From the NCBI GenBank assembly GCA_023374045.1, contig CM041777.1:463045827-463109826 (forward strand): 64,000 bases of DNA, in the 5' to 3' direction. Each line of letters opens with the position of its first letter. The first letter of the stretch is position 1. The DNA comes from Limonium bicolor (lineage: Eukaryota; Streptophyta; Magnoliopsida; Caryophyllales; Plumbaginaceae). Of the stretch, positions 32,741-53,502 are shown piece after piece. The translations under genes were made by a program, and so were the position numbers. The notes under the pieces are model-generated. The model worked only from the letters and a program-made list of their open reading frames with translations, searched no databases and was not told the DNA's origin.

Positions 32741-33062
32741 TGTAAAATTTGTTTTAGCTCGGGTTGAGAATGGATTGTGAGTGAGAGAGACTGAGTAGAG
32801 TGATAGGCGATATAAAGGCGGAAAAGACTGGCGGAAGTCACAGAGGTTTCGTGTGTCAGGCAAGAAAAATCAGGGGCGCGAGATTAAGGGCGGAGATTAG
32901 GCAAGGCGGGTGTGGATAGGTGACGTGTGTGTGTAGCGATAGGTACATAGATATTCAAGCAGAAACACAGTTCACAGATTCATTCATAAACAAAGACAGA
33001 CTCAGTGAGATAGAAGGGTATACCTGCTGACGATTGCGGTAGGAGCAAGGAGATGCGATCGT
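32741..33062. other. Spacer between pol and the extra ORF of the copia element
   Basis: About 320 bp with no coding signal on the element's strand. It probably serves as a leader or splice region for the extra ORF, but I see no clear acceptor. Confidence 0.4.
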
Positions 33063-33557
33063 CTAGGTAGATGGAGTCAATCCAATTGCTGATCGAAGTG
33101 CTTCAAATCGTGCTGTGAACAGAGGTTTAGTGAAGATATCTGCAAGATGATCTTCTGTGGGCACAAAGTCAAGTTGATTAAGCTTTTTCTCGACGCAGTC
33201 TTTCAAGAAATGAAAACGGATTTCAATGTGTTTGGTTCTTGAGTGTTGGACTGGATTTTCGGATATTTTGATTGTGCTTTTGTTGTCACAAAAGATTGGG
33301 ATCTGTTCTTGGGTAACATGATAATCTTGAAGTTGTTGTTTCATCCAAAGAAGTTGGGAGCAACAGGCTGCAGCAAAGACATACTCTGCCTCTGCTGTAG
33401 AGAGTGTGATAGAGTTTTGTTTTTTGGAGGACCATGAAACGAGACAAAGACCCAAGAACTGTGCATTACCTGAAGTACTCTTTCGATCTTGGAGGGAACC
33501 AGCCCAATCAGAGTCACTGTAGCCAGATAAAGAAAAGTAGCAGATTGAGGATACCAT
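33063..33557 (-). pseudogene. Copia RNase H (frameshifted relative to reverse transcriptase)
   Basis: Frame of ~164 codons with the copia RNase H signatures DSDWAG, KSTSG, STAEAEY, FCDNKSTIK and TKHIEIRFHFLKD, ending LADIFTKPL...LTPST. The catalytic acidic residues are visible. It is out of frame with the upstream reverse transcriptase; the shift lies near 33545. The terminal stop is at 33063. The domain removes the RNA strand from the RNA-DNA hybrid during reverse transcription. Confidence 0.85.
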
Positions 33558-34573
33558 AGATAGAGTGTACTTGTACCTTTGAGGTATCGAAAGGTACGTT
33601 TGACTGCTTTGAGGTGAGACTGCTTTGGCGCTGCCTGAAAGCGGGCGCAGAGACAGACTGCGTGGAGAATATCAGGGCGACTGGCAGTCAGATACAAGAG
33701 GGACCCTATCATTCCTCTATACTCTGTGGCATTGACACCGACGCCGTCGTCATCAAGATGAAGTTTGGCAGATGTGCAGCTGGGTGTTGACATGCTCTTG
33801 ACGTTTGTGAGATTGTACTTGTCAAGGAGTTCCTTGATGTACTTTTGTTGATGGATTTTAATCCCTTCCTTTTCCTGTCGAACTTGTAGTCCTAAAAAGA
33901 ACTTTAGCTCACCTAACTCATTCATGGAAAACTCTTGCTTCATAAGGTTAGCAAAATGGTCACAGAGGGTGTTACTCGTAGAACCATAGATAATATCATC
34001 AACATAAATCTGAACCAGAAGTAAGTCATGTGATGAGTGAAGAATGAATAGTATTTTATCTACGTTACCTCTAGAGAAGCCATTTTGCAAGAGATATGTA
34101 GAGAGTCTTTCATACCAAGCTCGCGGAGCCTGTTTCAGTCCGTAAAGGGCCTTACACAGCTTGTAGACGTAGTCAGGATGGACGGAGTCTGAGAATCCTG
34201 GGGGTTGCTCAACATAGACTTCTCTATCAATATAGCCATGAAGGAAGGCCGTCTTGACGTCCATTTGATATAATGTGAAACCTTTGAATGCAGCAAACAC
34301 AATTAACATGAAAATTGCTTCAAGACGAGCTACAGGTGCGAAGGTTTCATCAATCCCTTCTTCTTGATTGTAGCCCTGAACAACCAAACGAGCTTTATTC
34401 CTGAAAACTTGTCCTGCATCATCAAGTTTATTATGAAAGACCCAACGAGTACCAATGGTTTGTTGATGTGTGGGTCGAGGGACTAACTCCCAGATAGCAT
34501 GTCTTTGGAGGGAATTTAGTTCCTCCTACATAGCAGTGACCCAATCACTATCAAGAAGTGCCTCTTTGACATT
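33545..34573 (-). pseudogene. Copia reverse transcriptase (RVT_2), with in-frame stop
   Basis: The domain starts in the same frame as integrase and reads through a TAG at 34526-34528 (probably from CAG). Then follow [46 protein letters not shown] and the catalytic motif YVDD in [13 protein letters not shown]. It continues through the connection domain ([18 protein letters not shown]) to the frameshift near 33545. Catalytic aspartates are intact, but the stops and shift make the polyprotein non-functional. Confidence 0.88.
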
Positions 34574-35523
34574 TCACGGTTCGGTGCTTGAAAGAAAGGC
34601 ACCAAAGGCACATAGGTTTTGCATAGCTTGAAAGCGTGTTTGAACACCTGAATTTGGGTTGGATATTATATTTTCAGGAGGGTGAGCTGACTTTTGTTGG
34701 AACTGTCGATGGGAAGCAGAATGGGGTGTGTCTTTGTCAGAAGAGTCAAAGTTCAAGTTTTGAGGTAGGGGTGTTTCGGAGTTATTGTCGGAGTCCGTGG
34801 AGTCGGATGTATTATTTTGCTTTCCTGGGGAGTCATTAGGTGTGATGGACTCGGTGTCTTGGAGTCTACTTATAGGGACAGTGATGAAGTGTGGATCAGT
34901 GAGGAAATCGTCTGGAGCAAAGTCAAGTTGATCAGAAGATGAGCTAGCATTGTGAGACTCATCGAACCTGACATGGGGACTCTCTTCTAAACATTGAGTT
35001 CTCAGATTAATAACACGATAAGCTTTGCTTTTAGAAGAGTAGCCAAGAAATATGCCTTCATCACTCTTGGGAGAGAACTTATCCAGGTTGTCCTTACCAT
35101 TATTATGTATATAGCACTTACACCCGAAACGTCTGAGATGAACAAGATTCGGTTTGTGTTGACGGAGAAGTTCGTATGGTGTCTTGTGAAGAAATGGGTG
35201 GATCAAGGCGCGATTTAACACATAGCATGCTGTATTAATAGCCTTTGCCCAGTATGATGGGGTAAGGTGACTATCAATAAGCATGGTACGCGCCATTTCA
35301 ACCAAGGTCCTATTCTTTCGTTCAATGACTCCGTTCTGTTCTGGATTGCGTGCGGATGAGACTTGGTGATCGACTCCGTTATCCCTGCAAAACTCATCAA
35401 ACGACTTGTTGCAAAATTCAGTGCCCTGGTTTGTTCTCAGGGTTTTTAATGTAAATGAGAATTTATTGACAAGCACTTTATGGAGTTTGGCAAACTCCGT
35501 AAAGGTTTCATCCTTAGCAGACA
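34574..35523 (-). pseudogene. Copia integrase, C-terminal half (downstream of the nested insertion)
   Basis: It begins at the insertion point and carries the second and third catalytic positions of the integrase core. The usual RxDxGxEF motif reads RTNQGTEF, so the second aspartate is replaced by asparagine. The glutamate region (PEQNGVIERKNRTLVEMA) is intact. A C-terminal domain (FGCKCYIHNN, FSPKSDEGIFLGYS) and the acidic linker towards reverse transcriptase follow. A TGA at 34574-34576 closes the frame, and the following reverse transcriptase is in the same frame. Loss of an active-site aspartate suggests this copy was already decaying. Confidence 0.85.
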
Positions 35524-35528
35524 AAAAG
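35524..35528. repeat. Target-site duplication of the Tekay-like element, left copy (AAAAG)
   Basis: It directly precedes the LTR start TGTAACACC at 35529 and matches 49828-49832. Confidence 0.88.
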
Positions 35529-38500
35529 TGTAACACCCCAACCGTTAATCCTACTATTACCGTCTAATCGTCCTGTTAATCCTAAGAGTTCGCAGCGGAA
35601 ATACTACTACTTACTACGGAGGGTGAAACAATGCCGCTAACCGCCCATACGGCTAGCTAGGCTACTACTACTTACAGTGACGGTCTGATGAACATAATAT
35701 ACCGAGCTACTAACATTACTTACGAATTACAAAATACCATACATCTACTTTAAGGGACTACCGAGTATTTAGAGTATATTCAATTACATCTCCTTTCACT
35801 TTCCAAAAGAATGAGTTTCTACCAACTACCCATCTATACCCATTCACCATCCTTTCTATATCCAAAAAGGTGTACCCCATGGTACACCGGCTAATCAAAA
35901 ACTACAGCCGTGTACTACTCAGTACACCGATCACAATTCAATGTTTACAGTTCAAAAAGAAGACAAGAAATAAAACTAAGTCTTCAACAGCTCCCACCAT
36001 CTCGAGGACCTGCATTCATATTAAAAACGGTGCCCCAAGGGGCTCAGCAAAAGCTGCGCATGAACTCCGCATATACCGCGTGCTAGCTAGGGCACGCCGA
36101 CTACTTGACGTCCACTAAACATGCGGTTCATTATTTTCATACATACATGCTTTGCATACAACATCCATACATATACAATTCATTTCACAACCCAAGGCAA
36201 CAATACAAGAATCCATACATCACTTACCTTCACAAGGTTAGCCAAATTATGCATCCGGGTTAATCGGAATGCCTTTACTCTTTTACTCATTACTTACTCT
36301 TACTTACACTTACTTACTTTCATTTACTTACTTACTCATTCTTACTTACTTACTTATAATCATGTTAAGTCGGTATGACCTCCGGCCCGGGGACTACACC
36401 GTCCCACCACCGGGATTTACTTGACTCACCAATCCGGGATGCTACCCATTTAAGGGGTTTGGGCCGCGGACCAGCTTAAGAGTCAGGAATCGGATCCAAC
36501 CTCTTGTGTCTCCTCATCCTCACGCGTGGCCGAAACTATATCGGACTTCTACTCATTCCAATTTAATTACCAATTTAAGTTAGAATGGTTAGCTTGTTAG
36601 GAATAAGTTAGAAGTCCATTCACACATATACTCGGTCACATTACAATACAACATACATATACACATTCATATTCATCCATACATTTCATGAATTATACAA
36701 ACTAAGGTTTAAAGGAAATATTCACAACATACAACACTATATTTGCACAAGTAAACATGATAACTCCGATTCGTGTATTTATCTTATTTGGTGATCAATT
36801 AGCACACAACACACAAATCAGAGTAACCAAGATAGCATACGGGGCATGAGGAATTCATACCGTTCACCGTCGTACGTGATTCCGAACGTCCTTCCGGTGT
36901 CACAAATCAAATCCTAATATATACATACAACTGAATGATTAATCTATCTATCATTAACTTAATTCGATTACTCTTACGTTTCCTAAGTCGTACTTACTAA
37001 GTCTTTACATTTCTATACTTGCATTTTATTTACTTACTTTTGATTACTTAGCATTGGTTTACTTACATATATATGTACATACGCATAGGTGGGTATACAT
37101 ATATATACATATATATATATATGCTAGTTATAAGCTTACATTTTTTTTTGTAAGTTATGGGTCGTCCGACCTAGCGTCCGACCCAAGCCCTGGGTCGGAC
37201 CATTCCAGTAGAGTTCGTCCTCTGAAAATTACCCTGTCCGACCGCACTATTCCGTCCGACCCATACACCTGGGTCGGACCATTCCAGAAACTTTCAGTCC
37301 TGTGTCCAAACTCCGTCCGACCCACGTCCGACTCACCGTCTGGGTCGGACGAAGTCAGAAACTTCGCCACTAGAAAAATTTGCCTGTCCGACCCATGTCC
37401 GATCCACGGCTCTGGGTCGGACCATTATAGAAAGATTTATTTCATTGATTAAGCCCCGTCCGACCCACGTCCGACTCACCGTCTGGGTCGGACGAAGTCA
37501 GAACATGGCTACAGATTTTATTTTTCTTTCCCAATTTCACCCATTGCTTCCCCAATCTTCCTACATACATCCTAACATGTTTTGGTACAATTTAAACACT
37601 CTAAATCATGCTAATTCATTTCCTAATTCATGACACAATCCTATACTAACTTATACACACAATTTTCCTAGTTTCACTTCAACACTTACACTAGTTTCTT
37701 TCCTTATTACATTATGCTACAGATTTTAGTTCTAACTCTCTCCAACTATAGCTCCCTCTTCTAATGTCATTTTTAACACCTCTAATGCATTACAACTACC
37801 TTAACTACCTCTCCTAATATACTCTCTATCTTTCTCTATCAAAATCTGTTACAACATGTTTTTCCACCTAGCTTTTAATTCACTAAGTGTTCTAATCCTA
37901 CCTAAATTTTGACATAACCTCCCCTATATTTTTACACTCTCACCACATTGTTTTCATTCATAATCTACCTTGTCTCACCTGTTTTCAACAACCAAACATA
38001 TACAAGCTCCCATATACCATACCAATACTAAAACAACATCAAAATCCCTGCACTCAACAATCCAATCCCAACTATGTTTTAATAAGTTTTAAAATGTCTT
38101 TTAAAGGTTTCAAAATACTTATATCCTCTTATACATTACACTACTAATACATTGTCCTTTTACAATACACATTTTCATTTCAAAAATCTGTTACATTATA
38201 CATATACAAGACTACACGAAGGTGAGCATTCCTTACCTTGTTTTTCTTCTAGTTTTTCTTTCTTCTATTGCTTCTTCCTCTTTCCTTCTCTCTACCGATT
38301 TGTAATCCCAATTCCTCTAACACTACCAACATTTATATACATGCTTCAATACTAAAACAAACACTAAGTCTTATTTAAGCTTTTAATGTACATTCTAGGG
38401 TTTAGGAGTTTCCTTACCTTGTAAGAGTTTAAGTGCTGTTTGGAATGGTTCAAGAACAAGCTTTCCTACTCCTTCAACAAGCCAAAATCGGCTGGGCACA

Positions 38501-39390
38501 AGAGGAGCAACCAAAGTTTAACTTCAAATTTCGTTTTGCTTTTAAGGCTAGAAAAAGTTGGAGTTTTTGAAGATATTTTTACCTTAATAGAACAAGGAGA
38601 AGGAGGGCCTTCTAATGGTGGTCTTGAAACTCCAAATGGGGTATACCCATAAAATCGAATGCTCTTTTCTGGATTTTGAAAAGAGGAAAATGTTGCTCTT
38701 GAGGAGAGGAAGACAATGGTGTAGTTTTTATAATTTTTGCAAGAGTTTAGAGGGAGTTACAAAGGAGAGAAGTGAGTATATTTGTGAGGTTCTTCTTATT
38801 TCTCCATGGAATCGGCTGGAGGTTGAAGAAGAAAGAAAAGAGAGTGAGATGGGGTCTGTACGTGGAGGAAGAAATGAGGGGTAGGAGAGAGTGTGAGAGT
38901 GTGAGAGTAGATAAAGTAAGGTGGGGTTTACTTATTGTTTTTGTTTGTTTGTGAGTAAAAAGAGAGTAAAGAGAGTGTGAGGAGGGGGCCAAAATCGGAC
39001 AGCCCACACAGACCATGAGGGTCTTAAAATTTTATTTACAAAGTTGGACACATAAGTTTGTGTTATTTATATTTCTACCCCACAACTTCCCGTTTTTGAC
39101 AGTTTTTACTAATCTCTCGTTTTATTGATTTTATTGGTTCTAAAGCTTCACTAGTATTTATTAGCGGTTATTTAGTTGACCAAAATTATTACGAGTCTAT
39201 TTGACCCGGTTAAAGACACGTTTTCCCGGTTACCTCGAAAAACGTGCTTTAAGGTTCGGTAATGTTTTTAAACCGTTTTAAAGATCCGTTTTCTTCGGGA
39301 TTTGTTCCCTCATGATTATTTATACTTAATTAAGCTTCTAAATTATTCATTAGCCTAATTAATCACTATTTTTAATTATGGGGTATTTCA
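35529..39390 (-). repeat. Tekay-like 3' LTR
   Basis: 3862 bp, TG...CA. It contains a palindrome gccccaaggggc at about 36033, TTAC-rich simple repeats at 36284-36360, an AT microsatellite at about 37076-37122 and the hairpin cluster at 37176-37493. Small frames on the plus strand are antisense to the element, repeated in the other LTR, and not genes. Confidence 0.92.
37176..37493. repeat. Cluster of five GTCCGACCC palindromes in the Tekay-like 3' LTR
   Basis: Inverted repeats at 37176-37200, 37254-37279, 37315-37350, 37386-37422 and 37458-37493, each pairing gtccgaccca with tgggtcggac around loops of 5-17 bases. The third and fifth are almost identical. An extra unpaired arm is at 37164. The arrangement parallels the GTCCGGGAC cluster in the array LTRs. 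Confidence 0.85.
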
Positions 39391-39406
39391 ATCTACCCCC
39401 TTAAGA
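39391..39406 (-). other. Tekay-like polypurine tract
   Basis: atctacccccttaaga on the plus strand (minus: TCTTAAGGGGGTAGAT), abutting the LTR end at 39390. Confidence 0.85.
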
Positions 39407-39837: not shown

Positions 39838-42800
39838 CTAGTCTATGAATAACTGTGGGTACTTAGCCTTCATGGCATCTTCCAGCTCCCATGTCGCTTC
39901 TTCGACATCATGGTTTGACCATAGGACCTTCACCATTCGTATAGACTTATGGCGAGTGTCTCTGGTCTTCCTATCGAGGATTCTCACTGGGGTTTCAACA
40001 TATCTCATGTTTGGCTCAATGGATAAGTGTTCAGGCTCTAGAACATGAGAAGGATCAGCAATGTACTTCTTGAGTTGTGACACATGAAATACATCATGGA
40101 CACGTCCTAAGTCCTCAGGTAGTGCTAACCTGTAGGCTACAGCTCCAACTCTCTCGGTGATAGCATACGGCCCTACAAACTTTGGGCTCAGTTTGCCCTT
40201 CTGGCCAAATCGGAAGACACCCTTCATAGGTGAAACGCGCAAGAACACTTGGTCGCCTACGGCGAACTCAAGGTCGCGTCGTCGCACATCCGCATAGGAT
40301 TTCTGTCTATCTTGGGCTGCCTTCATATTAGCTTGAATCTGCTGAACTTCAGCTTGCACTTGCTCAAGATACTCCGGTCCTATGATGACCGCTTCGCTTG
40401 ACTCATCCCAACATAAAGGTGTACGGCAAGGTCTACCGTATAGAGCTTGGAAAGGCGACATCTTAATCGAGGCGTGATAACTATTATTATACGAGAACTC
40501 GATAAGATGAAGCTTATCTAACCAACTCCCCTGAAAGTCTAAGGCACATGCCCGAAGCATGTCCTCCAATGTCTGGATGGTCCTTTCTGTCAGACCGTCG
40601 GTCTGTGGATGGAAGGCGGTACTCAGCTTCAATTCTGTACCCAGCGCTTCCCTGGTAGCTCTCCAATATCTCGAAAGAAACCTGGTGTCGCGGTCAGATA
40701 CTATAGTTTTCGGGACTCCGTGATGTCTGATAATCTCCTTATCAAATAGCTCAGCTAGTTTCACTACCTTCCAGGTGTCCTTCATCGGTATGAATCTGGC
40801 CACCTTGGTAAGGCGATCAACTACGACCCAGATCATGTTGAGTCCTCCCCTAGCAAGTGGGAGTCCTACAACAAAATCCATGGAGATATCATGAAACTTC
40901 CACTCTGGAACTGGCATCGATTGTACCATTCCGCCTGGTCTACGATGTTCAAATTTTACCTTCTGGCATGTTAAGCATCTTAATACGAATTCTGTCACAT
41001 CTGACTTCATTCCAGGCCACCAGAAGTACCTCTTCATGTCTTTGTACATCTTGGAGGCTCCTGGATGGACTGATAATGTGGAACTGTGTGACTCTCGCAG
41101 GATGCGATCCCTTAGCTCTGCATTGCTTCGGGGGACGCATAGCCTGCCATTCAACCGAATCAAACCATCTTCATGTAGCTTGAAGTCATACTTTTTCTTC
41201 TCAAATGTACCATTCTCGATCTTTTGTCTGATTTCGGTTAGGTAAGGGTCGCTCAACTGAGCATCTCGCACCTCGTCAACCAAGCTAGAAGAAGCGAGTA
41301 GCGAATGGAGCGAGTGTGCTCGACGGCTCAGGGCGTCGGCTACAACGTTTGCCTTCCCTTCCTTATATTGCAAGTTGATGTCGTAATCTGAAAGGAATTC
41401 CATCCATCTTCTCTGTCTCAAATTCAGTTCTTTCTGCGTGAATACATACTGTAAGCTCTTATGATCGGAGTAGATGGTGATGCTTACCCCATAGAGATAG
41501 TGTCGCCATATCTTCAAAGCGAAGACAATGGCTCCTAACTCTAAGTCGTGAGTCGGGTAATTCTCCTCATGCTTTTTCAGCTGGCGGGAGGCATAAGCAA
41601 CAACCTTGCCATGCTGCATGAGTACGCATCCCATTCCTTTGCCTGATGCATCACAGTATACCTCAAATCCCTCTGTGCCCTCTGGAAGAGTAAGGATGGG
41701 CGCTGAGGTCAATGAGTCTTTAAGGCTCTTAAATGATAGCTCGCACTCGTCTGTCCATACAAACGGTGCATCTTTCTTCATCAGTGTAGTCATGGGCTTA
41801 GCGACTTTCGAGAAGTCCTTTACAAATCTCCGGTAGTAACCGGCTAGACCAAGAAAGCTCCTAATGTCGGTAACAGTCTTGGGTCTAGGCCATGTTCGTA
41901 CGGCTTCTATCTTAGAAGGGTCCACTGAGATACCTGCGCTCGAGATGACATATCCAAGGAATGATACCTGATCAAGCCAGAACTCACATTTGGAGAACTT
42001 CGCATACAGCTGGTTCTCGCGCAGTGTCTCAAGCACTTTCCTCAAATGAATTTCATGTTCCTCTGGTGATTTGGAGTATACAAGTATGTCGTCGATGAAG
42101 ACAACCACTGAAGTGTCCAACTGCTCACTGAATAGACGATTCATGAGGTCCATGAATTTAGCTGGTGCATTTGACAAACCGAATGGCATCACTGTGAATT
42201 CATAGTGGCCATATCTGGTACGGAATGCCATTTTCTCGATGTCTTGTTCTTTGATTGCAATTTGATGATACCCTGAACGGAGGTCGATCTTGGAGAAGAC
42301 TGATGCTCCTTTCAGCTGGTCGAATAGGTCGTCGATGCATGGTAATGGGTATTTATTCTTGACTGTAACCGCATTCAGCTCGCGGTAGTCAATACAAAGT
42401 CGGAGGCTACCGTCCTTCTTCTTCACGAAGAGGACCGGTGCTCCCCAGGGTGATACGCTCGGGCGTACAAACCCTTTGTCGAGTAAGTCTCTCAACTGCT
42501 CTTTCAGTTCCGTCATTTCGGCAGGTGCCATGCGGTACGGTGCCCTAGCAATGGGACCGGTACCTGGCAAAAGATCAATTTCAAATTCCACTGCTCTCGG
42601 TGGTGGCATGCCGGGTAGCTCCTTAGGGAATACATCGGGAAATTTGGATACGATCGGTACATCATCACTGAACTCTGGATCTCTCTCCAGGTCTTGTACA
42701 TAACACAAATATACTTCTTGGCCCTTTCTGAGCTCCCGGTACATAGCCATAGCGGAGATAACTGTGGTCGAAGGCTCTCTAGGTCTCTGGCGGTAAGATA

Positions 42801-43217
42801 CTGTAACCCCAGAAGGACTCTTGAGCAGCAATCGATGCTCTGCGCAGAGGATTCTACCCTTGTTCCGCTCCAACCAATTCATTCCGATGATTAAGTCGAA
42901 TCCCAATCCATTGAATTCGATGAAGGAAATGGGAAACGCTTCATTTTTGATTTCGATGGTGGCTGATTGGTAGTATTTGGTGCACTTTACTCGCTCCTTC
43001 GATGGGAGAGTAACCATGAAGTTCGGTAGCTCATCCGCATCTAGCTTTAACCTCTTCACAAAGGATGGTGATACAAAAGTGTGAGAGGCGCCGGAGTCGA
43101 ATAATACATTGGCATCAATGCCATTTACTGGGAAGGTTCCCGTTAAGATGGTGCCGCTTCTGCCGGCTTGTGCTTCGGTGAGGATGCTCAGGTTACCTTC
43201 GGTACCGAGTCCACAAC
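39838..43217 (-). CDS. pol: Tekay-like pol exon: protease, reverse transcriptase, RNase H, integrase, chromodomain
   Basis: An open frame from 43305 to the stop at 39838 (1155 codons). I start the exon at 43217, after a GT-AG acceptor (CTTCAATAG/GT), because this joins gag in frame. In residues from the 43305 methionine: protease DSG at 70-72; reverse transcriptase about 270-450 with FIDD at 403-406; RNase H with D552, E589, D614 and D657; integrase zinc site H740/H747/C777/C780; catalytic D810, D871 and E907 (D-35-E spacing); chromodomain about 1108-1153 ([16 protein letters not shown]). All key residues are present with no stop or shift. It makes the enzymes for cDNA synthesis and integration; the chromodomain probably biases integration to heterochromatin. 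Without splicing it would need its own start at 43305. Confidence 0.93.
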
Positions 43218-43357: not shown

Positions 43358-44115
43358 TTAATACTTCCTAAAGGTAAGGTTCAGGCGTCCTGGTTTCATG
43401 TGTGTGGCATTGATTATTGCCGGTGGTGCTGTATTCAGCTTGATCTTGTTGATCCCGTGATACAACATCCTGGAGTTTCCACCCATGATTAGGACATCTC
43501 CTGATCTCAACACCAATTTCTGTGCTAGGTCCACACGCTTCTGCTCGCTATACATAAATATGGCGTCATCACCAATGGACCAAGACACTACGGGCACTCC
43601 TTGTTCAAGAGATTCCGCTGTCTCGTCCTTGTCTTGGTGTAACCCAAGTCGTCCTTCTTTCTCGTAGAAGTTGACAATACAAAGGTCCGCTTCAAGTGCG
43701 GGGATTGGATCATGTTCGCATTGTTGTGCAAGTTCTACTGCTTGCGTGACGAGTGTCTGAAACTCTGGAGGTATTGTCAGTGGCGTTGTTCCGTCGTGCT
43801 TCCGTGTCTCCTGGTATGTCTTGGTATAAGGATTCCAGTCCTTTCCCAAGCACATCATTTTCAGCTTCATCTTCGCTCCACCGGGGAATTCGGGTGTATA
43901 AAATCCACCTTGACCCGTTCCTAGTTTGTTGCATCGTCGAATGATTGAGATTTGTGCTTCGGGTGTCAGGTATCTCTTTAATAAAATCATACCTGGTCGG
44001 ATGACCTGACACTGTTCGTTGGTGTAGTAGTGGGTCGTGATGTCGATCTCTTCTTGATTCAGGTTTACCGGTATCGGATAACAGATACTAAAGTTTCCTA
44101 AGGTTATAAATTCAC
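43358..44115 (-). CDS. AlkB-like 2-oxoglutarate/Fe(II) dioxygenase encoded within the retrotransposon
   Basis: The open frame is continuous from the stop at 43358 up to 44137 (259 codons). I place the exon start at 44115, after acceptor ACCGTAG/GT, which fuses it in frame to gag; a second in-frame acceptor is ACCTTAG/GA about 16 bases on. A separate start is possible at Met50 (43990), where the AlkB fold begins ([16 protein letters not shown]). The iron ligands are H167 and D169 ([11 protein letters not shown]) and H227 (YHGI). The 2-oxoglutarate arginines R251 and R257 lie in [10 protein letters not shown]. Other family signatures are [24 protein letters not shown] and [12 protein letters not shown]. 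It most resembles plant ALKBH1-type proteins rather than virus AlkB domains. The family oxidatively removes methyl groups from RNA or DNA bases; the substrate here is unknown. It lies between gag and pol on the same strand, is intact, and is probably a captured host gene. Confidence 0.9.
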
Positions 44116-44250
44116 CTACGGTAAGTACTAGTTTCAACTACTTCATTTCATGCTCATTACATACTCCAATCATTTACTCATGCATTCACTCAAACAATTA
44201 CTCTACTACTTAGTCATGCTACTTCAAGGATTAAAGGTTCAGATAATTAC
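44116..44250 (-). other. Alternative intron 3a (joins gag to AlkB)
   Basis: 135 bp, AT-rich, GTAATTAT...ACCGTAG on the minus strand. Phase 1 on both sides; splicing gives a Gag-AlkB frame of 681 codons. Stops in the unspliced sequence (TAA five codons past the donor) end Gag if it is retained. Confidence 0.6.
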
Positions 44251-44595
44251 CTGGGCCGGATTTCGAACCGGACCCATCACGGTCAATCACATGCAGAACA
44301 GGCTGCCTCTGAGGTGCGCCCCTCTGAGGACCCCGGGATCCCTGTCCCTGTGGTGCCTGCTGGGCCGGTGCATCGCCAGATGCCACCTCCTTGCCCTCTC
44401 TCTGCTTGTAGCTCTGGAAGGTTCCCTTCGGCTTCCCATTCTCTGGGCATCTATTAGCTGTGTGTCCCGGCTTCTGACAGTTGTAGCATTTGATGTCTCT
44501 CCCAAAGCAGTCTTTACCAGGGTGGTCCTGGTTGCACTTTCTGCACACATAGGTGCGGCCATCTGAGAAGGTTTTGGCGGAACCGGAGCTAGAAC
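44251..44595 (-). CDS. gag: Tekay-like gag exon 3: nucleocapsid zinc knuckles
   Basis: 345 nt in the frame that includes VCRKCNQDHPGKDC (C-x2-C-x3-H-x4-C, a variant knuckle) and CYNCQKPGHTANRC (canonical CCHC). A Q/G/R-rich tail (AQQAPQGQGSRGPQRG) runs to the donor CCCAG/GTAATT. It has no upstream ATG of its own. Joined by splicing to exon 2 (phase 1), it completes Gag. The knuckles bind and package genomic RNA. It is the branch point for alternative joining to AlkB or pol. Confidence 0.82.
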
Positions 44596-44678
44596 CTGAG
44601 GTTAGAGGGTTAGCACATGTGTGCGTGGATATACTAGATATAGTACTTATACGAATACGAATTGGTTTAGAATTTTAC
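44596..44678 (-). other. Gag intron 2
   Basis: 83 bp, GTAAAATTCT...CTAACCTCAG on the minus strand, AT-rich, with a CTAAC branch-like motif close to the acceptor. Phase 1 on both sides. The frame on either side is open only when it is removed. Confidence 0.65.
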
Positions 44679-44958
44679 CCTTAGGTGGGTGTGATCTCAG
44701 TGGCTTTGCTGCCACCGGTGCAGAATAACCAAGTTGAAGAAGCTCAACTGGTTTGCCCTGCTCAGCATGGGCACTGCTCTCACTTGGGGATTTCTTTTGG
44801 GATTGCTGGAAGAAATTCCCCTTCTTCTTTTTCCAGCTCTTACCCTGGTTCTGCTCCTCGCCATTGGTGTTCTTGTTGTTGGCCTTGCGCTTAAGCGCGG
44901 TTTCTTCATCCCTTAGTTGGCAAGTGATCTCAACGCGAGAAGCCGCGTGATAACACTC
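44679..44958 (-). CDS. gag: Tekay-like gag exon 2: basic linker
   Basis: 280 nt (93 codons plus one base), open in the single frame that splicing predicts, starting ECYHAASRVEITCQLRDEE. It is a lysine-rich segment (ALKRKANNKN, GKSWKKKKGNFFQQ) of the sort that links the Gag capsid region to the zinc knuckles. It has no start codon in a suitable place. Its identity as coding rests on amino-acid composition and the exact phase match with both neighbours. Other frames across it read as low-quality shadows. Confidence 0.75.
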
Positions 44959-45071
44959 CTGAAGTTTCAGGTATTAGCCGGGATTCTTATTTGAGAAAGG
45001 ATATAGGAAAGATTTAAGCAATTTAAGGAATTAAGGAATTGAAATGGTACTAAGGGTTAACTGATATTTAC
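44959..45071 (-). other. Gag intron 1
   Basis: 113 bp with donor CAG/GTAAAT and acceptor AACTTCAG/GA, strongly T-rich in the middle (minus strand), with a CTAAT branch-like motif 15-20 bases from the acceptor. Phase 0. If retained, Gag ends five codons later at 45057. Confidence 0.7.
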
Positions 45072-45734
45072 CTGAAGGGAGGTAAATCGAGTGTAGCCCA
45101 TACCGTACCGAAGGCGATGGCTCAGACCGCCATAGAAGCGATCGACCAACACCTGGCCGGTGTATCCTAGATCGGGAAGAAGACGGAGAATGGAGGTGAA
45201 GGTGCGGTAGTACTCATCCACAGACATCTTGTCTGTCATCTTCAAGGCATCTAGCTCTAGCCTTTTCTTCGTTTTCACGTGCTCCGGATAGTACTTAGAT
45301 CGGAGGAGTGATGCAAATGACTCCCAATCGATTGTGGGGTCATTGACATGCTCTTGCTTTACTAGCTTCCACCAATCTATAGCCGCATCCTTCAGATAAT
45401 AGGCTGCAACTCTCACTCGAACTCCAGCAGGAGCTTCGAGGGTTTCAAAAGCAGTCTCCATTTTGGAGATGTATGCTTCTAGCTTAGCCGGATCACTCTC
45501 GCCCCTAAAGCAAGGAGGGCGGAGGTCCGCTACAGCTTTTACCCAGTTTGCTTCTCTGGGTGGCGGGGGAGGGATTGGCCCCGCTTGAGTTTGGTTCTGC
45601 TGGTTCTGTTGCATAGCATTTATAACTTGCGGTAGCATCTGCGCTACCGTGGCGGCGACGATCTCAGCTATCGTCTGCGCGCCAGGTCCTTCTGAGGCTT
45701 CGCCTCTAGCTCGGCCTCGGCCTCTGCCTGACAT
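45072..45734 (-). CDS. gag: Tekay-like gag exon 1: capsid region
   Basis: 221 codons from ATG 45734 (MSGRGRGRARGEASEGPG) to the donor at 45072; an upstream in-frame ATG at 45776 is less likely. It has an arginine/glycine-rich start, a Q-rich and proline-rich segment, and then the retrotransposon gag domain (WVKAVADLRPPCFRGESDP, AAIDWWKLVKQEH, RFYGGLSHRLRYGMGYTRF). Without splicing the frame stops at 45057. It builds the virus-like particle. The typical Gag would continue straight into linker and zinc knuckles, which here follow only after intron removal. Confidence 0.88.
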
Positions 45735-45956
45735 CTGAACATTCAGTAGGTACATTAGGCTCCATACATGTGACATAGTAACTTAAGGACCATTGGTCAC
45801 GAATTAAAACATGGTGTCGTTCTTAGAACGTCAAGGGTATCCGTTTGTTAACAACGGTAGTTCCTAGTTAGGTTTCTAAGTATCCGTCTTAAGACGGTTG
45901 AAATCCTAACTCGGTATCCCTATGCTCGGTAACTATGGACATCAGAGCGACACTTC
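45735..45956. other. Tekay-like leader between primer site and gag
   Basis: 222 bp. Its first ~60 bases (minus strand) share phrases with the array leader (GTGTCGCTCTGATG, ATACCGAGTTAGGATTTCA), which links the two families. A packaging signal is expected here but none is identifiable by eye. Confidence 0.6.
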
Positions 45957-45968
45957 GCTCTGATACCA
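45957..45968 (-). other. Tekay-like primer-binding site (tRNA-iMet)
   Basis: Minus strand TGGTATCAGAGC, five bases inside the 5' LTR end. Confidence 0.9.
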
Positions 45969-45973
45969 CTTTT

Positions 45974-48900
45974 TGTAACACCCCAACCGTTAATCCTACT
46001 ATTACCGTCTAATCGTCCTGTTAATCCTAAGAGTTCGCAGCGGAAATACTACTACTTACTACGGAGGGTGAAACAATGCCGCTAACCGCCCATACGGCTA
46101 GCTAGGCTACTACTACTTACAGTGACGGTCTGATGAACATAATATACCGAGCTACTAACATTACTTACGAATTACAAAATACCATACATCTACTTTAAGG
46201 GACTACCGAGTATTTAGAGTATATTCAATTACATCTCCTTTCACTTTCCAAAAGAATGAGTTTCTACCAACTACCCATCTATACCCATTCACCATCCTTT
46301 CTATATCCAAAAAGGTGTACCCCATGGTACACCGGCTAATCAAAAACTACAGCCGTGTACTACTCAGTACACCGATCACAATTCAATGTTTACAGTTCAA
46401 AAAGAAGACAAGAAATAAAACTAAGTCTTCAACAGCTCCCACCATCTCGAGGACCTGCATTCATATTAAAAACGGTGCCCCAAGGGGCTCAGCAAAAGCT
46501 GCGCATGAACTCCGCATATACCGCGTGCTAGCTAGGGCACGCCGACTACTTGACGTCCACTAAACATGCGGTTCATTATTTTCATACATACATGCTTTGC
46601 ATACAACATCCATACATATACAATTCATTTCACAACCCAAGGCAACAATACAAGAATCCATACATCACTTACCTTCACAAGGTTAGCCAAATTATGCATC
46701 CGGGTTAATCGGAATGCCTTTACTCTTTTACTCATTACTTACTTTCGCTTACACTTACTTACTTTCATTTACTTACTTACTTACTTATAATCATGTTAAG
46801 TCGGTATGACCTCCGGCCCGGGGACTACACCGTCCCACCACCGGGATTTACTTGACTCACCAATCCGGGATGCTACCCATTTAAGGGGTTTGGGCCGCGG
46901 ACCAGCTTAAGAGTCAGGAATCGGATCCAACCTCTTGTGTCTCCTCATCCTCACGCGTGGCCGAAACTATATCGGACTTCTACTCATTCCAATTTAATTA
47001 CCAATTTAAGTTAGAATGGTTAGCTTGTTAGGAATAAGTTAGAAGTCCATTCACACATATAATCGGTCACATTACAATACAACATACATATACACATTCA
47101 TATTCATCCATACATTTCATGAATTATACAAACTAAGGTTTAAAGGAAATATTCACAACATACAACACTACATTTGCACAAGTAAACATGATAACTCCGA
47201 TTCGTGTATTTATCTTATTTGGTGATCAATTAGCACACAACACACAAATCAGAGTAACCAAGATAGCATACGGGGCATGAGGAATTCATACCGTTCACCG
47301 TCGTACGTGATTCCGAACGTCCTTCCGGTGTCACAAATCAAATCCTAATATATACATACAACTGAATGATTAATCTATCTATCATTAACTTAATTCGATT
47401 ACTCTTACGTTTCCTAAGTCGTACTTACTAAGTCTTTACATTTCTATACTTGCATTTTATTTACTTACTTTTGATTACTTAGCATTGGTTTACTTACATA
47501 TATATGTACATACGCATAGGTGGGTATACATATATATACATATATATATATGCTAGTTATAAGTTTACATTTTTTTTTTGTAAGTTATGGGTCGTCCGAC
47601 CCAGCGTCCGACCCAAGCCCTGGGTCGGACCATTCCAGTAGAGTTCGTCCTCTGAAAATTACCCTGTCCGACCCAGCACTATTCCGTCCGACCCATACAC
47701 CTGGGTCGGACCATTCCAGAAACTTTCGGTCCTGTATCCAAACTCCGTCCGACCCACGTCCGACTCACCGTCTGGGTCGGACGAAGTCAGAAACTTCGCC
47801 ACTAGAAAAATTTGCCTGTCCGACCCATGTCCGATCCACGGCTCTGGGTCGGACCATTACAGAAAGATTTATTTCGTTGATTAAGCCCCGTCCGACCCAC
47901 GTCCGACTCACCGTCTGGGTCGGACGAAGTCAGAACATGGCTACAGATTTTATTTTTCTTTCCCAATTTCACCCATTGCTTCCCCAATCTTCCTACATAC
48001 ATCCTAACAGGTTTTGGTACAATTTAAACACTCTAAATCATGCTAATTCATTTCCTAATTCATGACACAATCCTATACTAACTTATACACACAATTTTCC
48101 TAGTTTCACTTCAACACTTACACTAGTTTCTTTCCTTATTACATTATGCTACAGATTTTAGTTCTAACTCTCTCCAACTATAGCTCCCTCTTCTAATGTC
48201 ATTTTTAACACCTCTAATGCATTACAACTACCTTAACTACCTCTCCTAATATACTCTCTATCTTTCTCTATCAAAATCTGTTACAACATGTTTTTCCACC
48301 TAGCTTTTAATTCACTAAGTGTTCTAATCCTACCTAAATTTTGACATAACCTCCCCTATATTTTTACACTCACCACATTGTTTTCATTCATAATCTACCT
48401 TGTCTCACCTGTTTTCAACAACCAAACATATACAAGCTCCCATATACCATACCAATACTAAAACAACATCAAAATCCATGCACTCAACAATCCAATCCCA
48501 ACTATGTTTTAATAAGTTTTAAAATGTCTTTTAAAGGTTTCAAAATACTTATATCCTCTTATACATTACACTACTAATGCATTGTCCTTTTACAATACAC
48601 ATTTTCATTTCAAAAATCTGTTACATTATACATATACAAGACTACACGAAGGTGAGCATTCCTTACCTTGTTTTTCTTCTAGTTTTTCTTTCTTCTCTTG
48701 CTTCTTCCTCTTTCCTTCTCTCTACCGATTTGTAATCCCAATTCCTCTAACACTACCAACATTTATATACATGCTTCAATACTAAAACAAACACTAAGTC
48801 TTATTTAAGCTTTTAATGTACATTCTAGGGTTTAGGAGTTTCCTTACCTTGTAAGAGTTTAAGTGCTGTTTGGAATGGTTCAAGAACAAGCTTTCCTACT

Positions 48901-49827
48901 CCTTCAACAAGCCAAAATCGGCTGGGCACAAGAGGAGCAACCAAAGTTTAACTTCAAATTTCGTTTTGCTTTTAAGGCTAGAAAAAGTTGGAGTTTTTGA
49001 AGATATTTTTACCTTAATAGAACAAGGAGAAGGAGGGCCTTCTAATGGTGGTCTTGAAACTCCAAATGGGGTATACCCATAAAATCGAAAATGCTCTTTT
49101 CTGGATTTTGAAAAGAGGAAAATGTTGCTCTTGAGGAGAGGAAGACAATGGTGTAGTTTTTATAATTTTTGCAAGAGTTTAGAGGGAGTTACAAAGGAGA
49201 GAAGTGAGTATATTTGTGAGGTTCTTCTTATTTCTCCAGGGAATCGGCTGGAGGTTGAAGAAGAAAGAAAAGAGAGAGTGAGATGGGGTCTGTACGTGGA
49301 GGAAGAAATGAGGGGTAGGAGAGAGAGTGTGAGAGTGTGAGAGTAATAAAGTAAGGTGGGGTTTACTTATTGTTTTTGTTTGTTTGTGAGTAAAAAGAGA
49401 GTAAAGAGAGAGTGTGAGGAGGGGGCCAAAATCGGACAGCCCACACAGACCATGAGGGTCTTAAAATTTTATTTACAAAGTTGGACACATAAGTTTGTGT
49501 TATTTATATTTCTACCCCACAACTTCCCGTTTTTGACAGTTTTTACTAATCTCTCGTTTTATTGATTTTATTGGTTCTAAAGCTTCACTAGTATTTATTA
49601 GCGGTTATTTAGTTGACCAAAATTATTACGAGTCTATTTGACCCGGTTAAAGACACGTTTTCCCGGTTACCTCGAAAAACGTGCTTTAAGGTTCGGTAAT
49701 GTTTTTAAACCGTTTTAAAGATCCGTTTTCTTCGGGATTTGTTCCCTCATGATTATTTATACTTAATTAAGCTTCTAAATTATTCATTAGCCTAATTAAT
49801 CACTATTTTTAATTACGGGGTATTTCA
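45974..49827 (-). repeat. Tekay-like 5' LTR
   Basis: 3854 bp, TG...CA, ~99.5% identical by eye to 35529-39390. Differences are mostly in TTAC and AT microsatellites plus scattered transitions. It should hold the promoter. The hairpin cluster is at about 47606-47925. Confidence 0.92.
47606..47925. repeat. Five-hairpin cluster in the Tekay-like 5' LTR
   Basis: The same five GTCCGACCC palindromes as at 37176-37493. The upstream arm at about 47594 is also intact here (gtccgaccca), giving one more potential pairing. Confidence 0.85.
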
Positions 49828-49832
49828 AAAAG
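49828..49832. repeat. Target-site duplication of the Tekay-like element, right copy (AAAAG)
   Basis: It follows the LTR terminus TATTTCA and equals 35524-35528. Confidence 0.88.
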
Positions 49833-50536
49833 ATTACCCAAGTCCACCTGGAACAGTCATCAACTATGACCAGGATATACCTCTTACCACTTATACTTTG
49901 AGTACGCATGGGGCCAACAAGATCCATGTGGAGCAATTCCAACGGAGAGCTAGTAGAGAGAGTTAACTTACTTTTGAAGGATGACCGGGTGTGTTTACCT
50001 TTTATGCACGCTTCACAGACGGAGTCTGTGTCAAAGTTTGTATCGGGTAAACCAATCACCAAATCCTTACTTTTGAGTTTGTTCAACAGCCTGTGATTTG
50101 CGTGACCAAGTCTGGAGTGCCACAACAATGAATTTTTGGAATGCACATTTAGACAGACTTGATCATCTGGATTAATGGAGTTTAAGCACATTTTGTAGAG
50201 ATTTCCTTCTCTGCGTCCCACAGCTTTTAAGGAACCTGTACGCTCATCAAAAACCTTACAATCCGAAGAGGAGAAAAGTACCAAATTGAATCGATCACAA
50301 ATTTGAGAAATACTTAACAAACTATGTTGAAGTCCAGTGACCAGATGGACTCCATCAATTTTAAATCTAGAGGGGTTACCTACAGAGCCAACTCCCACGA
50401 TTTCACCCTGGTTGTTGTTTCCAAAGGTAACCTTACCTCCTTGGTAGGATGAAAGCGAATTAAATTGATTTGGATCTCCAGTCATGTGACAAGAGCATCC
50501 ACTATCCAAGTACCAGCTGTCTTCATTCGCCTTCAC
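49833..50536 (-). pseudogene. Copia protease and N-terminal integrase (upstream of the nested insertion)
   Basis: Aspartic protease signature WYLDSGCSCHMTG near the start. Then the pre-integrase zinc region (LWHSRLGHANHRLL ... CEACIKGKH) and the first catalytic aspartate of integrase (LLHMDLVGP). The coding sequence is cut at the AAAAG target site within the integrase core; the rest resumes at 35523 downward. Two stop codons lie between the preceding gag frame and this one (about 50552 and 50540). Confidence 0.88.
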
Positions 50537-50551
50537 CTACAAAACAAAAGA

Positions 50552-51049
50552 TCATTTGTTAGACTTGGGAACCCAGATGTACTTGGGTTCCCTTTTCGAG
50601 CCAGATTTTTTTAACTTTTCTCTAGCTTCAAGAATCAATCTGACTCGTTTGAGATTGAACGAAAGATCTTTATTCAATTTATTGCAATCACTGTCCCTAT
50701 GTCCAAGGCTCCCGCAGTATCCACATATCTTAGTGGGAGGAAGATTAACGTATTTCTGTTGTCCTTTCCACCAAGAGTCAAAATTTTCTTTTTGTTGATG
50801 TCGCTTGGCTTTGTTGTTGGATTTGGACATATTTTTTGGAATATCGAACTTACCTTTTTGCCACTTGGGCTTGGATTGAGTGGATCCAACTCCGGATCGT
50901 AGATTGACAATCTCTTGAGAGAGTTGTTCTACCTTTGAATGAAGATCATCACGATCTTGACTAACTTCCTTGATTTTGGAGTTAGCCCACTCAGGTAGTT
51001 CGCAGGAAGTGACTTGTTTGATGAATTTGACTGGCTTTACAGAGAGCAT
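50552..51049 (-). pseudogene. Copia gag, C-terminal part with second zinc knuckle
   Basis: A coiled-coil stretch (KIKEVSQDRDDLHSKVEQLSQ), then a basic region and a CCHC knuckle (CGYCGSLGHRDSDC), ending PKYIWVPKSNK at a TGA. It is shifted by one base relative to the preceding gag segment (frame break near 51050) and is in frame with the protease segment downstream, separated from it by two stops. Confidence 0.8.
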
Positions 51050-51050
51050 G

Positions 51051-51677
51051 CTAGTTTTCTTTCAGTTTTTGAGTGAGGTTTTTGACAGTAGAGTTTAAAG
51101 ACATGATTTTGGATTCGGAGGCATTTAGTTCATTTTGAAGAGAGCAGCATTTATCGGTGAAGATAGTGAGATCATGTTTGAGGGAGTCAATCAGAGTGAG
51201 AGACTCTTTGTGCTCACTTTGGCTGGATTGACTAAGACTTTTGGTGTCGTCGAGTTCCTTTTGAAGGGAATCAACATGACGCCGTGAGTCTTGTAAGTCC
51301 AGTCTAAGTGAGCAAGAGATAGTCTTGTGTTCCTCATCTTCGTCTCTTAAAGCATACATGAGACCCTTTGAGATTTCGAGTTCCTCAGTTAACTCGAAAA
51401 TTTTGCTGGTGAGACTTGCTTTGAGGGAGTTAGTCTCAGAGACAATTTTAGCAATTAAAGTCATAAAGCCCATAGGAGATATACGATAAATATCTGTTTC
51501 AAGATGGGAACGAGTTACCTCATTGTCGGGGATCATGGACTCAGTCGTATCATGTGCCATGAGACATACCAGGTCGCTGGACTCTGTGTCTTGATCGTCG
51601 GAGTCTGAATCACCCCAACCGACAGCTGCCATCAGCGACCTCCCTTGGGATTTTCCATACTGGTTGTTGAGTAAGGG
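51051..51677 (-). pseudogene. Copia gag, central coiled-coil part
   Basis: It is in frame with the N-terminal gag across a single stop. It has an acidic start (GWGDSDSDDQDTESSD), then a long heptad-rich coiled coil (ELTEELEISKGL, DSLQKELDDTKSLSQ) of the kind seen in SIRE-lineage Gag. It ends at TAG 51051. Confidence 0.8.
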
Positions 51678-52640
51678 TCAGTCCTTCTTGAAGTGACCGG
51701 GTTTATTGCAGTTGAAACAGGTGATAGAGTTGAAGACTTGTTTGGAGGTATTTGAGAACGATCGACTCTGTCGATTTGGTTGGTTACGCATGAATTTTTG
51801 GAAGTTCTTTACTATGAAGACAAAGTCTTCCATAGTCTCAGCCTCACTTTCTTCAACAATAATATCCACCAACTCGGCCTTAGCTTGTCTGATTTGAGTA
51901 TCAGCGACATAGGCTCCTTCTTGAGTGTACTGAGTCGAATTAACCTGCAAGGCTTGGTCACTCAAAGTAGTAATTTTACTGGAAGAAGAAGATGTATTAC
52001 CACACTTCTTTCGAACGTTCTTCTTGTACTTATCTACAGATTGTAGATAAGAACCTAAGTCTTGGCAGCTCCATTTTGATAAGTCCTTGCATGCTTTGGT
52101 GGAGATTACCGTCTCTTCCCACTCTTCTCTGAGACTGTCAAGCAGCTTGTGCAAGACACTCTCTCTATCCGGTAAGATGTTAACTTCCTCCATAGTAGTT
52201 GTTAGTAAATAAAAACGATCAAACACTTCTTCCAGAGACTCACCGGGTTTTTGCAGAAAATTCTCATAGTCCATTCGAAGTTCTTGAGCTTTACATTTCT
52301 TGAGTTCAGTGACTCCTTCGTGGGTAGCTTGAAGGAGTGTCCATATCTCGTTTGCGGACTTACAGTGATTGACTCTTCTTTGTTCTGGAATGGACAGGCA
52401 AGTGTAGATTGCGCGGGATGCTTGTCGATTTAGCTCATACCTTTTGCGATCTGCAGCAGTCCACGTGGATCGATCTGGATTGACTGCGAGATCTCCTCCA
52501 GTGACTATCTCCCAAAGTTCAGAGTTGACTGACTCAATGTGTTGTTCGATCTCGTTTTTCCAATGATCGTAGTTGGTGGAGGTGAGTCTGGGGTGCTCGA
52601 AGTGCATTTTGTTGTTTTGATTGGCGAAGAGGTCTGCCAT
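51678..52640 (-). pseudogene. Copia gag, N-terminal part, ending in a nonsense-mutated zinc knuckle
   Basis: Starts MADLFANQNNKMHFEHPRL at ATG 52640, with the copia gag domain (YDHWKNEIEQHIES, IWTLLQATHEG, LRMDYENFLQKPGESLEE). It ends at a CCHC knuckle, CFNCNKPGHFKKD, whose final cysteine codon has become TGA. Reading continues in the same frame beyond. It encodes the particle-forming protein; this copy would make a truncated one. Confidence 0.88.
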
Positions 52641-52671
52641 TGCTCGTTGATTGACTGTCAGCCTAAGCAGG

Positions 52672-52683
52672 GCTCTGATACCA
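52672..52683 (-). other. Copia primer-binding site (tRNA-iMet)
   Basis: Minus strand TGGTATCAGAGC, two bases (CG) inside the 5' LTR. Confidence 0.88.
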
Positions 52684-52685
52684 CG

Positions 52686-53502
52686 TGTAGGATTGGGTGG
52701 CTAACTCAAACCAACTCAAGGTGTGAGTCTGTGAGTTGGTTTGACTCAATCAACCTTTGTACGCAAGAACACTTAAAATGTAGAGACACTCAATCGAATT
52801 GATTGAACTGAGTGCGCGGAAGACTTAAAGGAGTTAAACGAATAAATGATGTGAAAGATAGAAAGACTCTGTGGAGCTCAGCAAGATACACAAATAAGCT
52901 ATTTTATTCTCTGGTCAAAATAAAATAACTTACAAATGCCCCTAGGTAGAAAAGATATACTTCGTGGTTTTTCACTCACTCACCCAATACACTTTCTGAT
53001 CAGCTCAATGGTAAGTGCAGCAAAACTAGGATCTTCCTAGGCAGAGTCTATCTAGATACACTAACTGATTTGGTACGAATTCTCTCTTTGGCTTACAATG
53101 ATAATTCTCTCTCTCTAACCTCTGGAATATTTCTCAATAAAAGCGTAAATGAAACTAGCTATTACAAGGCTTATTTATACTGGCTTTAGGAGCAACGGGT
53201 TGAAGGAGTTAGTTCCGAAATTGTCGGAACTAACTTAGTGGGCAACATCCTCAGGTGGTCTTAGTCTGACTTGGGCCGCGAACTTCGGATGCGACTGGGG
53301 TGGTTGTGTGACCGTTGGAGCATTGAAGTGTTCACGAATCTGTTCCTTAGTTTTCGCAACAGCATGGAAGAGTCCGTGGCGTTTCTTCAGTTGTGCGGAC
53401 TCTCTTGTAGTTTGGTGCGTAACTCGTTCTTTGTGTTTGGCCGAGGACGATTGACTTTGTCGAGGTGATTGACTATCTCTGCAACACTTTGATGTCTCAA
53501 CA
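52686..53502 (-). repeat. Copia 5' LTR
   Basis: 817 bp, TG...CA (TGTAGGATT to CTCAACA). It retains both canonical ends, unlike the 3' LTR. Confidence 0.88.
53171..53180 (-). promoter_or_regulatory. TATA box of the copia 5' LTR
   Basis: The minus strand reads GTATAAATAA, about 330 bases from the LTR's 5' end on that strand. The equivalent in the 3' LTR is mutated to GCATAAATAA. Confidence 0.55.

Follow-up and report, generated by a model that had tools for sequence, protein, structure and literature searches.

A captured ALKBH1-type AlkB gene as a predicted alternative gag exon in a chromovirus-like Ty3 retrotransposon family of Limonium bicolor

LTR retrotransposons of plants are generally intronless, with Ogre and EVADE as the reported exceptions (PMC12786077). 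Most plant groups are described as encoding their polyprotein in a single open reading frame (ORF) and some in two, while in Ogre and Bianca the ORFs are separated by an intervening stretch (PMC6317226). The closest described system to the element presented here is Gypsy_Pa_2799 of Phalaenopsis, likewise a plant Ty3 LTR family with a large genome share that has captured an AlkB gene with complete iron and 2-oxoglutarate (Fe/2OG) residues (PMC9289625). The orchid element belongs to the Ogre/Tat lineage, spans 25.5 kb and has a tRNA-Arg primer binding site (PBS), a dual RNase H and a single gag-pol ORF. Its ALKBH5-like AlkB closes a separate ORF2 and is reported as an RNA-binding protein with m6A demethylase activity in vitro (PMC9289625). 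The same source reports a survey of 121 genomes in which 2-ODD was found in Phalaenopsis elements only. AlkB is also encoded by other genetic parasites, i.e. plant RNA viruses of the Alpha-/Betaflexiviridae and Closteroviridae (PMC9289625), which are RNA viruses and can be likened to the present element by description, not by sequence.

In this study, we have analyzed a window of 64,000 nucleotides of Limonium bicolor DNA that contains an AlkB gene inside a Ty3 retrotransposon. A sequence-only reading of this window knew of no Ty3 element with such an arrangement, a claim that has to be narrowed given the published orchid lineage with its functional AlkB, which differs in clade, AlkB subtype and position (PMC9289625). 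The ALKBH5-type ORF2, Tat lineage and tRNA-Arg PBS that mark the orchid AlkB-Ogre are not found in the window element. Instead, it is chromovirus-like, 14.3 kb long and provided with a PBS presumably of the tRNA-Met type, and its ALKBH1-type AlkB is located between gag and pol as a predicted alternative exon. In lineage, AlkB type and predicted expression route it is a variant independent of the orchid case. It resembles the Ogre gag-pol intron and EVADE, where partial splicing likewise sets polyprotein expression, yet these belong to other lineages and no enzyme exon is described for them in the accounts cited, whereas two acceptors in the window element would choose between AlkB and pol (PMC6317226; PMC12786077). 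Among the titles and abstract openings of the open-access matches listed, a set that lies mostly apart from subscription journals and preprints, no chromovirus with AlkB or with a Gag-AlkB splice switch was found.

The LTR element around the AlkB gene is complete, measures 14,299 bp and is composed as follows (window coordinates; a slash marks an exon border, introns and splice sites are predicted, and copy counts refer to the 30-copy set described below):

45974..49827, minus strand: 5' LTR (TGAAATACCCC...GGGGTGTTACA), 3854 bp
35529..39390, minus strand: 3' LTR, 3862 bp; identity with the 5' LTR 99.56% when gaps are excluded
49828..49832 and, as second copy, 35524..35528, unstranded: target site duplication CTTTT on both flanks
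45957..45968, minus strand: primer binding site TGGTATCAGAGC, presumably of the initiator tRNA-Met type
45072..45776, minus strand: gag exon 1, capsid (PF03732, PF19259)
44959..45071, minus strand: intron 1, 113 bp, GC 0.32, GT...AG
44679..44958, minus strand: gag exon 2
44596..44678, minus strand: intron 2, 83 bp, GC 0.36, GT in 30 of 30 and AG in 30 of 30 copies
44251..44595, minus strand: gag exon 3 with zinc knuckle PF00098, ending at donor 3 in phase 1
44249..44250, minus strand: shared splice donor 3, CCCAG/GTAATTATC, GT in 30 of 30 copies
44098..44250, minus strand: intron 3, short form, 153 bp, GC 0.33, from donor 3 to the AlkB acceptor
43358..44097, minus strand: AlkB exon, ALKBH1-type 2OG-Fe(II) dioxygenase, from the acceptor CTTAG/GAAAC to the stop codon
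43218..44250, minus strand: intron 3, long form, 1033 bp, from donor 3 to the pol acceptor; its excision would remove AlkB and yield Gag-Pol
39838..43217, minus strand: pol exon with protease, reverse transcriptase, RNase H, integrase and a weak chromodomain, acceptor TTCAATAG/GTTGTG
39391..39404, minus strand: polypurine tract TTAAGGGGGTAGAT, preceding the 3' LTR

All hallmarks of an LTR retrotransposon are present, namely a TG..CA LTR pair, a target site duplication, a PBS, a polypurine tract and gag-pol. Of the 3843 gap-free columns of the LTR alignment, 17 are mismatched (99.56% identity) and 30 more columns are gapped, which is close to the ~99.5% that had been estimated by eye. Pol was correctly read as intact, being a single frame of 1155 codons with the domain order PR-RT-RH-INT, and the order with AlkB between gag and pol is confirmed as well. 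Integrase_H2C2 scores above its cutoff, while the integrase core PF00665 (22.9 bits, cutoff 32.6) and the chromodomain PF00385 (20.1 bits, cutoff 25.1) score below theirs. We refer to the element as a young, chromovirus-like Ty3 element. The PBS AAAAGTGGTATCAGAGC is one that we take to be of the initiator tRNA-Met type, and the clade may be Tekay, the name given in the sequence-only reading. Tekay elements are reported from seed plants only (PMC6317226). The insertion interrupts a Ty1-copia element, the halves of which are found at window positions 31181-35563 and 49796-52700 (RVT_2 and Retrotran_gag_2 matches). Another Ty3-type pol remnant, 26-43% identical, lies on the plus strand at 58239-61867. 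Positions 1-29700 of the window are occupied by a tandem array of ~8.4-kb units (GC 0.40), of which the later copies are 97.6-99.8% identical to the first. This array has no Rfam match and, in four translated frames, no Pfam match; an rDNA identity was rejected, and the array is possibly made of element units or a macrosatellite.

On the minus strand, the AlkB open frame extends from 44137 to 43358 and counts 259 codons, the first of which is TTG. The earliest in-frame ATG of the window copy, M50 at 43990, coincides with the start of the Pfam domain. A profile search, as had been suggested for this frame, matched PF13532 over residues 49-257 with an E-value of 1.2e-44 and 153.4 bits (cutoff 31.2), which is far beyond chance. 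The HxD...H iron site (H167, D169, H227), the RxxxxxR 2OG site (R251, R257) and the N/Y 2OG contacts (N156, Y158) are all present, in agreement with the intact frame and full Fe and 2OG site claimed before. Judged from these residues, the gene encodes an intact enzyme of predicted function, catalytic residues being no proof of activity. Of the earlier span 43358..44115 the end at 43358 stands, while the start is better placed at 44097: this splice acceptor, rather than 44115 or 44137, is the most likely start of the coding exon.

The best match in the PDB is 5xeg (E-value 1.3e-71), an entry under the name 2OG-Fe oxygenase family protein, which we take to be rice ALKBH1. It is followed by bacterial-type AlkB (7e-21 and weaker) and ALKBH1 (4.8e-11 and weaker); the 21 PDB entries listed include five ALKBH1 sequences and no ALKBH5 or FTO entries. 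Plant protein matches include ones titled ALKBH1D-like, ALKBH1C-like or DNA N6-methyladenine demethylase. In a phylogenetic tree, seven AlkB rows (the window, P0001-P0004, P0037 and P0038) form one clade (support 95/93), which is adjoined by 32 plant-labelled rows (97/94), seven of them without a named source. The sequence-only reading had proposed the capture of an ALKBH1-type gene, and both the search and the tree point the same way; the assignment to the ALKBH1 subfamily is partly search-based, as the trees are built without ALKBH9/10/5 rows. A second tree with 11 of 38 own-genome copies unites the whole element AlkB clade (98/98), with the window group pairing with P0001/P0003 (100/96) and a second, diverged subfamily (the L104 group) pairing with P0002/P0038 (91/89). 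Since two subfamilies of the same genome pair with different outside relatives within one clade, the capture is to be read as old and single within the rows sampled. The element AlkB shares family, residues and the FDIC leader motif with plant ALKBH1/ALKBH1D such as 5xeg, but forms a separate clade and lacks the long N-terminus of the host proteins, whose rows measure 219-447 amino acids. Arabidopsis ALKBH1D is reported to be chloroplastic (PMC7066317).

No intron interrupts the AlkB exon in the copies examined, which fits a capture from mRNA; the captured piece was thus probably intronless and mRNA-derived. A resident host ALKBH1 gene was not found among the 106 and 150 scored matches of two queries, which are dominated by element-like copies (L112-L119 left out). 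Wherever the sequence of AlkB relatives covers them, the Fe and 2OG residues are retained. The best full-length pol relative, P0123 (76% over 1094 residues), and the AlkB relative P0002 are each located on a 26,561-bp ENA contig, presumably the same one; the remaining pols with at least 90% coverage are at most 61% identical, among the 120 listed of 8000 scored. Scans of IMG/VR and GTDB returned three viral-contig and 70 bacterial AlkBs, none of which is a plant element by title.

The AlkB gene is shared by a large family. In the own genome (2.92 Gb in 2686 contigs), we counted 16,319 exact matches to a degenerate LGLHQDKDE pattern and none to the reversed-pattern control, and allowing any codon at H167 gives 16,520 matches (control 1), with His in 98.8%. 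As it requires intact neighbours, the pattern is biased towards better preserved copies. The family would make up ~8% of the assembly if every match stood for a full 14.3-kb element, a figure of arithmetic and not of measurement. A search with AlkB itself yielded 52,893 first-look candidates. Identity was 90-100% in the 147 that were scored, and a hand count found internal stops in 21 of these. Within the first places listed, the motif occurs in runs of three or four at distances of ~10.4-10.6 kb (C1:1430339-1461742, C1:4328127-4348980 and C1:7387131-7418993), as expected for tandem LTR-internal arrays from unequal LTR recombination.

For detailed comparison, 30 own-genome copies (L074-L103, L074 being the window itself) were used, in all of which AlkB is surrounded by gag exons 1, 2 and 3 and by pol. 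The second subfamily consists of eight own-genome copies (L104-L111) obtained with a Colocasia query, with an AlkB 58-61% identical to that of the window and pol segments 49-94% identical, the top value coming from a segment of 17 residues. All eight have pol and at least one gag exon around a stop-free AlkB part with all seven key residues, so that gag and pol sequence flanks AlkB in each of the 38 copies examined with flanks (L074-L111). In this light, AlkB is a lineage trait of the element family. A late private insertion of a host gene, or an AlkB confined to this one copy, had been named as the outcome that would overturn the earlier reading. It was ruled out by thousands of AlkB copies, the 16,319 motif matches among them, by dN/dS and by the gag and pol flanks.

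Selection appears to have maintained the gene. The median pairwise dN/dS of the AlkB exon is 0.114 (dN 0.022, dS 0.196; 431 pairs of the 30 copies), far from the value near 1 that the sequence-only reading had set against itself, and compares well with 0.057, 0.101 and 0.096 for gag exons 1, 2 and 3 and with 0.090 in the initial 1.35 kb of pol (from 29 copies, with a 5-95% range of 0.050-0.536 and a sum ratio of 0.244). Within the second subfamily the ratio is 0.191 (25 of 28 pairs, those with dS above 0.02), and between this subfamily and the window dS is saturated at a dN of 0.33-0.35. The 30 copies were those ranked highest by AlkB protein score, a choice that pulls dN of AlkB downward; noncoding controls within these copies, such as the 13 codons upstream of the AlkB acceptor, which likewise belonged to the query and yet show a pN/pS of 1.05, speak against this bias as the whole cause of the low ratio. 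N156, Y158, H167, D169 and H227 are retained in 30 of 30 copies, R251 in 27 and R257 in 29. In three copies R251 is replaced by H and in one R257 by M; these otherwise similar copies likely encode a dead AlkB. Internal stops are found in the AlkB exon of five of the 30 copies, compared to eight for the pol piece, six for gag exon 1, one for exon 2 and three for exon 3. Lost arginines and stops, also in the 147 scored copies, are what one would see if AlkB were a captured fragment without function that was amplified along with the element. We give hardly any credence to such a passenger role, as the dN/dS of AlkB is on par with gag and pol, remains low in the second subfamily and goes with saturated dS between the subfamilies, and as His167 is kept in nearly all motif matches. 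In addition, the differences between element AlkBs shun columns conserved in the 32 plant-labelled proteins (p 2e-7 to 2e-12, six pairs). A neutral-drift simulation, in which two lineages of 71% or 58% identity both stayed stop-free in 58 and 11 of 4000 runs, respectively, was ascertained on open frames, hence weak, and is superseded by dN/dS.

Gag is not encoded by one frame but by three exons, and the stretches between them leave the frames unjoined. Exons 1 and 2 join in phase 0 and exons 2 and 3 in phase 1. Taken by itself, a Gag without a single open frame could be a degenerate copy in which mutations, and no introns, cause the breaks. This is very improbable given that the same breaks recur with GT/AG ends in 27-30 of 30 copies and that exons 1 and 2 are open frames without overlap. 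Moreover, in six of the eight diverged copies, those that are readable here, exon 1 abuts exon 2 with zero bases between them, exactly at the predicted junction. Intron 1 of the window subfamily is missing to the base from these six copies (L104-L111), a presence/absence pattern that is best read as intron gain or loss within a retrotransposon. When the start of exon 2 was compared with intronless gag proteins, at most 12 of 1000 shuffles did as well in three of six references and no signal was seen in the other three; a protein search with gag exon 1 had no matches.

The third break carries the predicted switch. Donor 44250 joins in phase 1 either to 44097 (AlkB) or to 43217 (pol). Splice sites were scored with a plant matrix: of 137 GT sites, 45071 (donor 1) and 44250 (donor 3) are the best two, with donor 2 (44678) at rank 11, and of 229 AG sites, 43217, 44115, 44958, 44097 and 44595 rank 2, 3, 10, 11 and 16, the top-ranked AG falling within gag coding sequence. 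Introns 1, 2 and the short form of 3 have a GC content of 0.32-0.36 versus 0.46-0.58 for the exons, with 0.34 for the segment between AlkB stop and pol acceptor. Across the 30 copies, GT is found at donor 1 in 27 of 27 (three are gapped) and at donors 2 and 3 in all, while AG is found at acceptor 1 in 29, at acceptor 2 in 30, at 44097 in 29 and at the pol acceptor in 30. With 44115 left out, splice dinucleotides differ from the window at 2 of 400 bases and intron bodies at 1087 of 11,454 (P 4e-15). The pN/pS ratio drops at both acceptors, from 1.05 (0.77-1.50) in the 13 codons upstream of 44097 to 0.26 (0.21-0.33) from there to M50, and from 2.1 (1.3-4.5, with few synonymous changes) before 43217 to 0.29 (0.16-0.37) after it, indicating that coding constraint starts at both predicted acceptors. 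Homology to intronless gag-pol proteins, in the frame read from 43380, begins at residue 46 or later in 12 of 12 and at residue 59 or later in 9 of 12, with 43217 corresponding to residue 55. The second subfamily retains the AlkB acceptor AG in the same phase in 8/8 copies, the pol acceptor ACCCCAG/G in 8/8 and a GTAAGCCT donor in 6/8, in phase 1 in five of them and with a shifted frame in L108. Two other acceptors were rejected. Site 44115 outscores 44097 as AlkB exon start, but its AG is present in 26/30 copies and the stretch before 44097 is neutral; a pol acceptor at ~43314, a first guess by eye, was dropped for 43217 on the homology start, matrix rank and pN/pS.

Some observations count against the splice model. 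A GTAAG donor is visible in only 6/8 diverged copies and in phase in five, the gag frame past donor 3 has a pN/pS of 0.53 (0.46-0.65) where 1 is expected of an intron, and the AlkB acceptor and the AG of intron 1 are each lost in one of 30 copies, with donor 1 gapped in three. In addition, eight of the 30 copies have an in-frame ATG upstream of M50; the other 22, including the window, have none. AlkB might also do without a fusion and be translated from M50 of an unspliced or subgenomic RNA, giving a free enzyme like the orchid one with its separate ORF2 (PMC9289625). The ATG of M50 is present in 30/30 copies, at the start of the Pfam domain. We consider this route unlikely, because the 35 codons between acceptor and M50 are under purifying selection in contrast to the 13 codons before the acceptor, and because the AG at 44097 persists at the same place in the diverged copies. 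The methionine is also conserved in plant host proteins and hence is no obligate start. AlkB thus appears to be an alternative exon of an intron-split gag, its splicing being predicted.

Starting from the apparently intact enzyme, its family-wide conservation, the conserved splice sites and the coding boundaries, we infer how splicing, fusion, packaging and substrate may be connected. We think it likely that a chromovirus-like Ty3 family captured part of a plant ALKBH1, has retained it as a functional enzyme and uses it as an alternative terminal gag exon, so that a Gag-AlkB fusion removes methyl marks. Element RNA left unspliced at donor 44250 would yield Gag alone, splicing from 44250 to 44097 a Gag-AlkB fusion ending at the AlkB stop, and splicing from 44250 to 43217 Gag-Pol. 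Being tethered to a Gag with capsid and zinc knuckle, AlkB would reach the genomic RNA and enter the particle. In this setting it could oxidatively strip methyl groups, be it m6A, m1A or m3C in genomic RNA or primer, or 6mA or alkyl damage in cDNA, that would otherwise hold back translation or reverse transcription.

As to the substrate, host ALKBH9B takes m6A off ONSEN (PMC9289625; PMC12786077); this, together with the action of the orchid AlkB on m6A RNA, favours RNA m6A, while the kinship with ALKBH1 favours m1A, 6mA or broader substrates (PMC7475180, PMC7066317). Compatible with the splice model, AlkB may instead repair alkylated nucleic acid or modify host transcripts or 6mA of host DNA, with no erasing on the element's own RNA. 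Some plant relatives are indeed named DNA N6-methyladenine demethylase or ALKBH1D-like, bacterial-type AlkB is the next solved relative and animal ALKBH1 works on RNA, DNA and histones (PMC7066317). The predicted fusion to Gag and its zinc knuckle would rather point to the particle and the genomic RNA, and we hold a repair or host-directed role to be possible, at somewhat less than even chances. A more specific scenario is doubtful: the splice switch might load particles with a Gag-tethered ALKBH1-type eraser that clears the genomic RNA of m1A/m3C blocking reverse transcription, or frees from m1A58 the initiator tRNA-Met presumably used at the PBS, the tRNA link being speculation. Removal of m1A58 from tRNA by ALKBH1 has been reported (PMC7475180).

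In summary, while AlkB in a plant Ty3 element is already known from the orchid (PMC9289625), the gag split by predicted introns and the AlkB as a predicted alternative exon are new here. The family provides a retrotransposon with several predicted introns, one of which is present in one subfamily yet missing from another. The conserved layout of one donor and two acceptors makes it directly testable whether the particle receives an eraser that the element itself encodes. Two plant Ty3 lineages with different AlkB types, each at high copy, would make RNA/DNA methylation a recurrent field of conflict between plants and their transposons.
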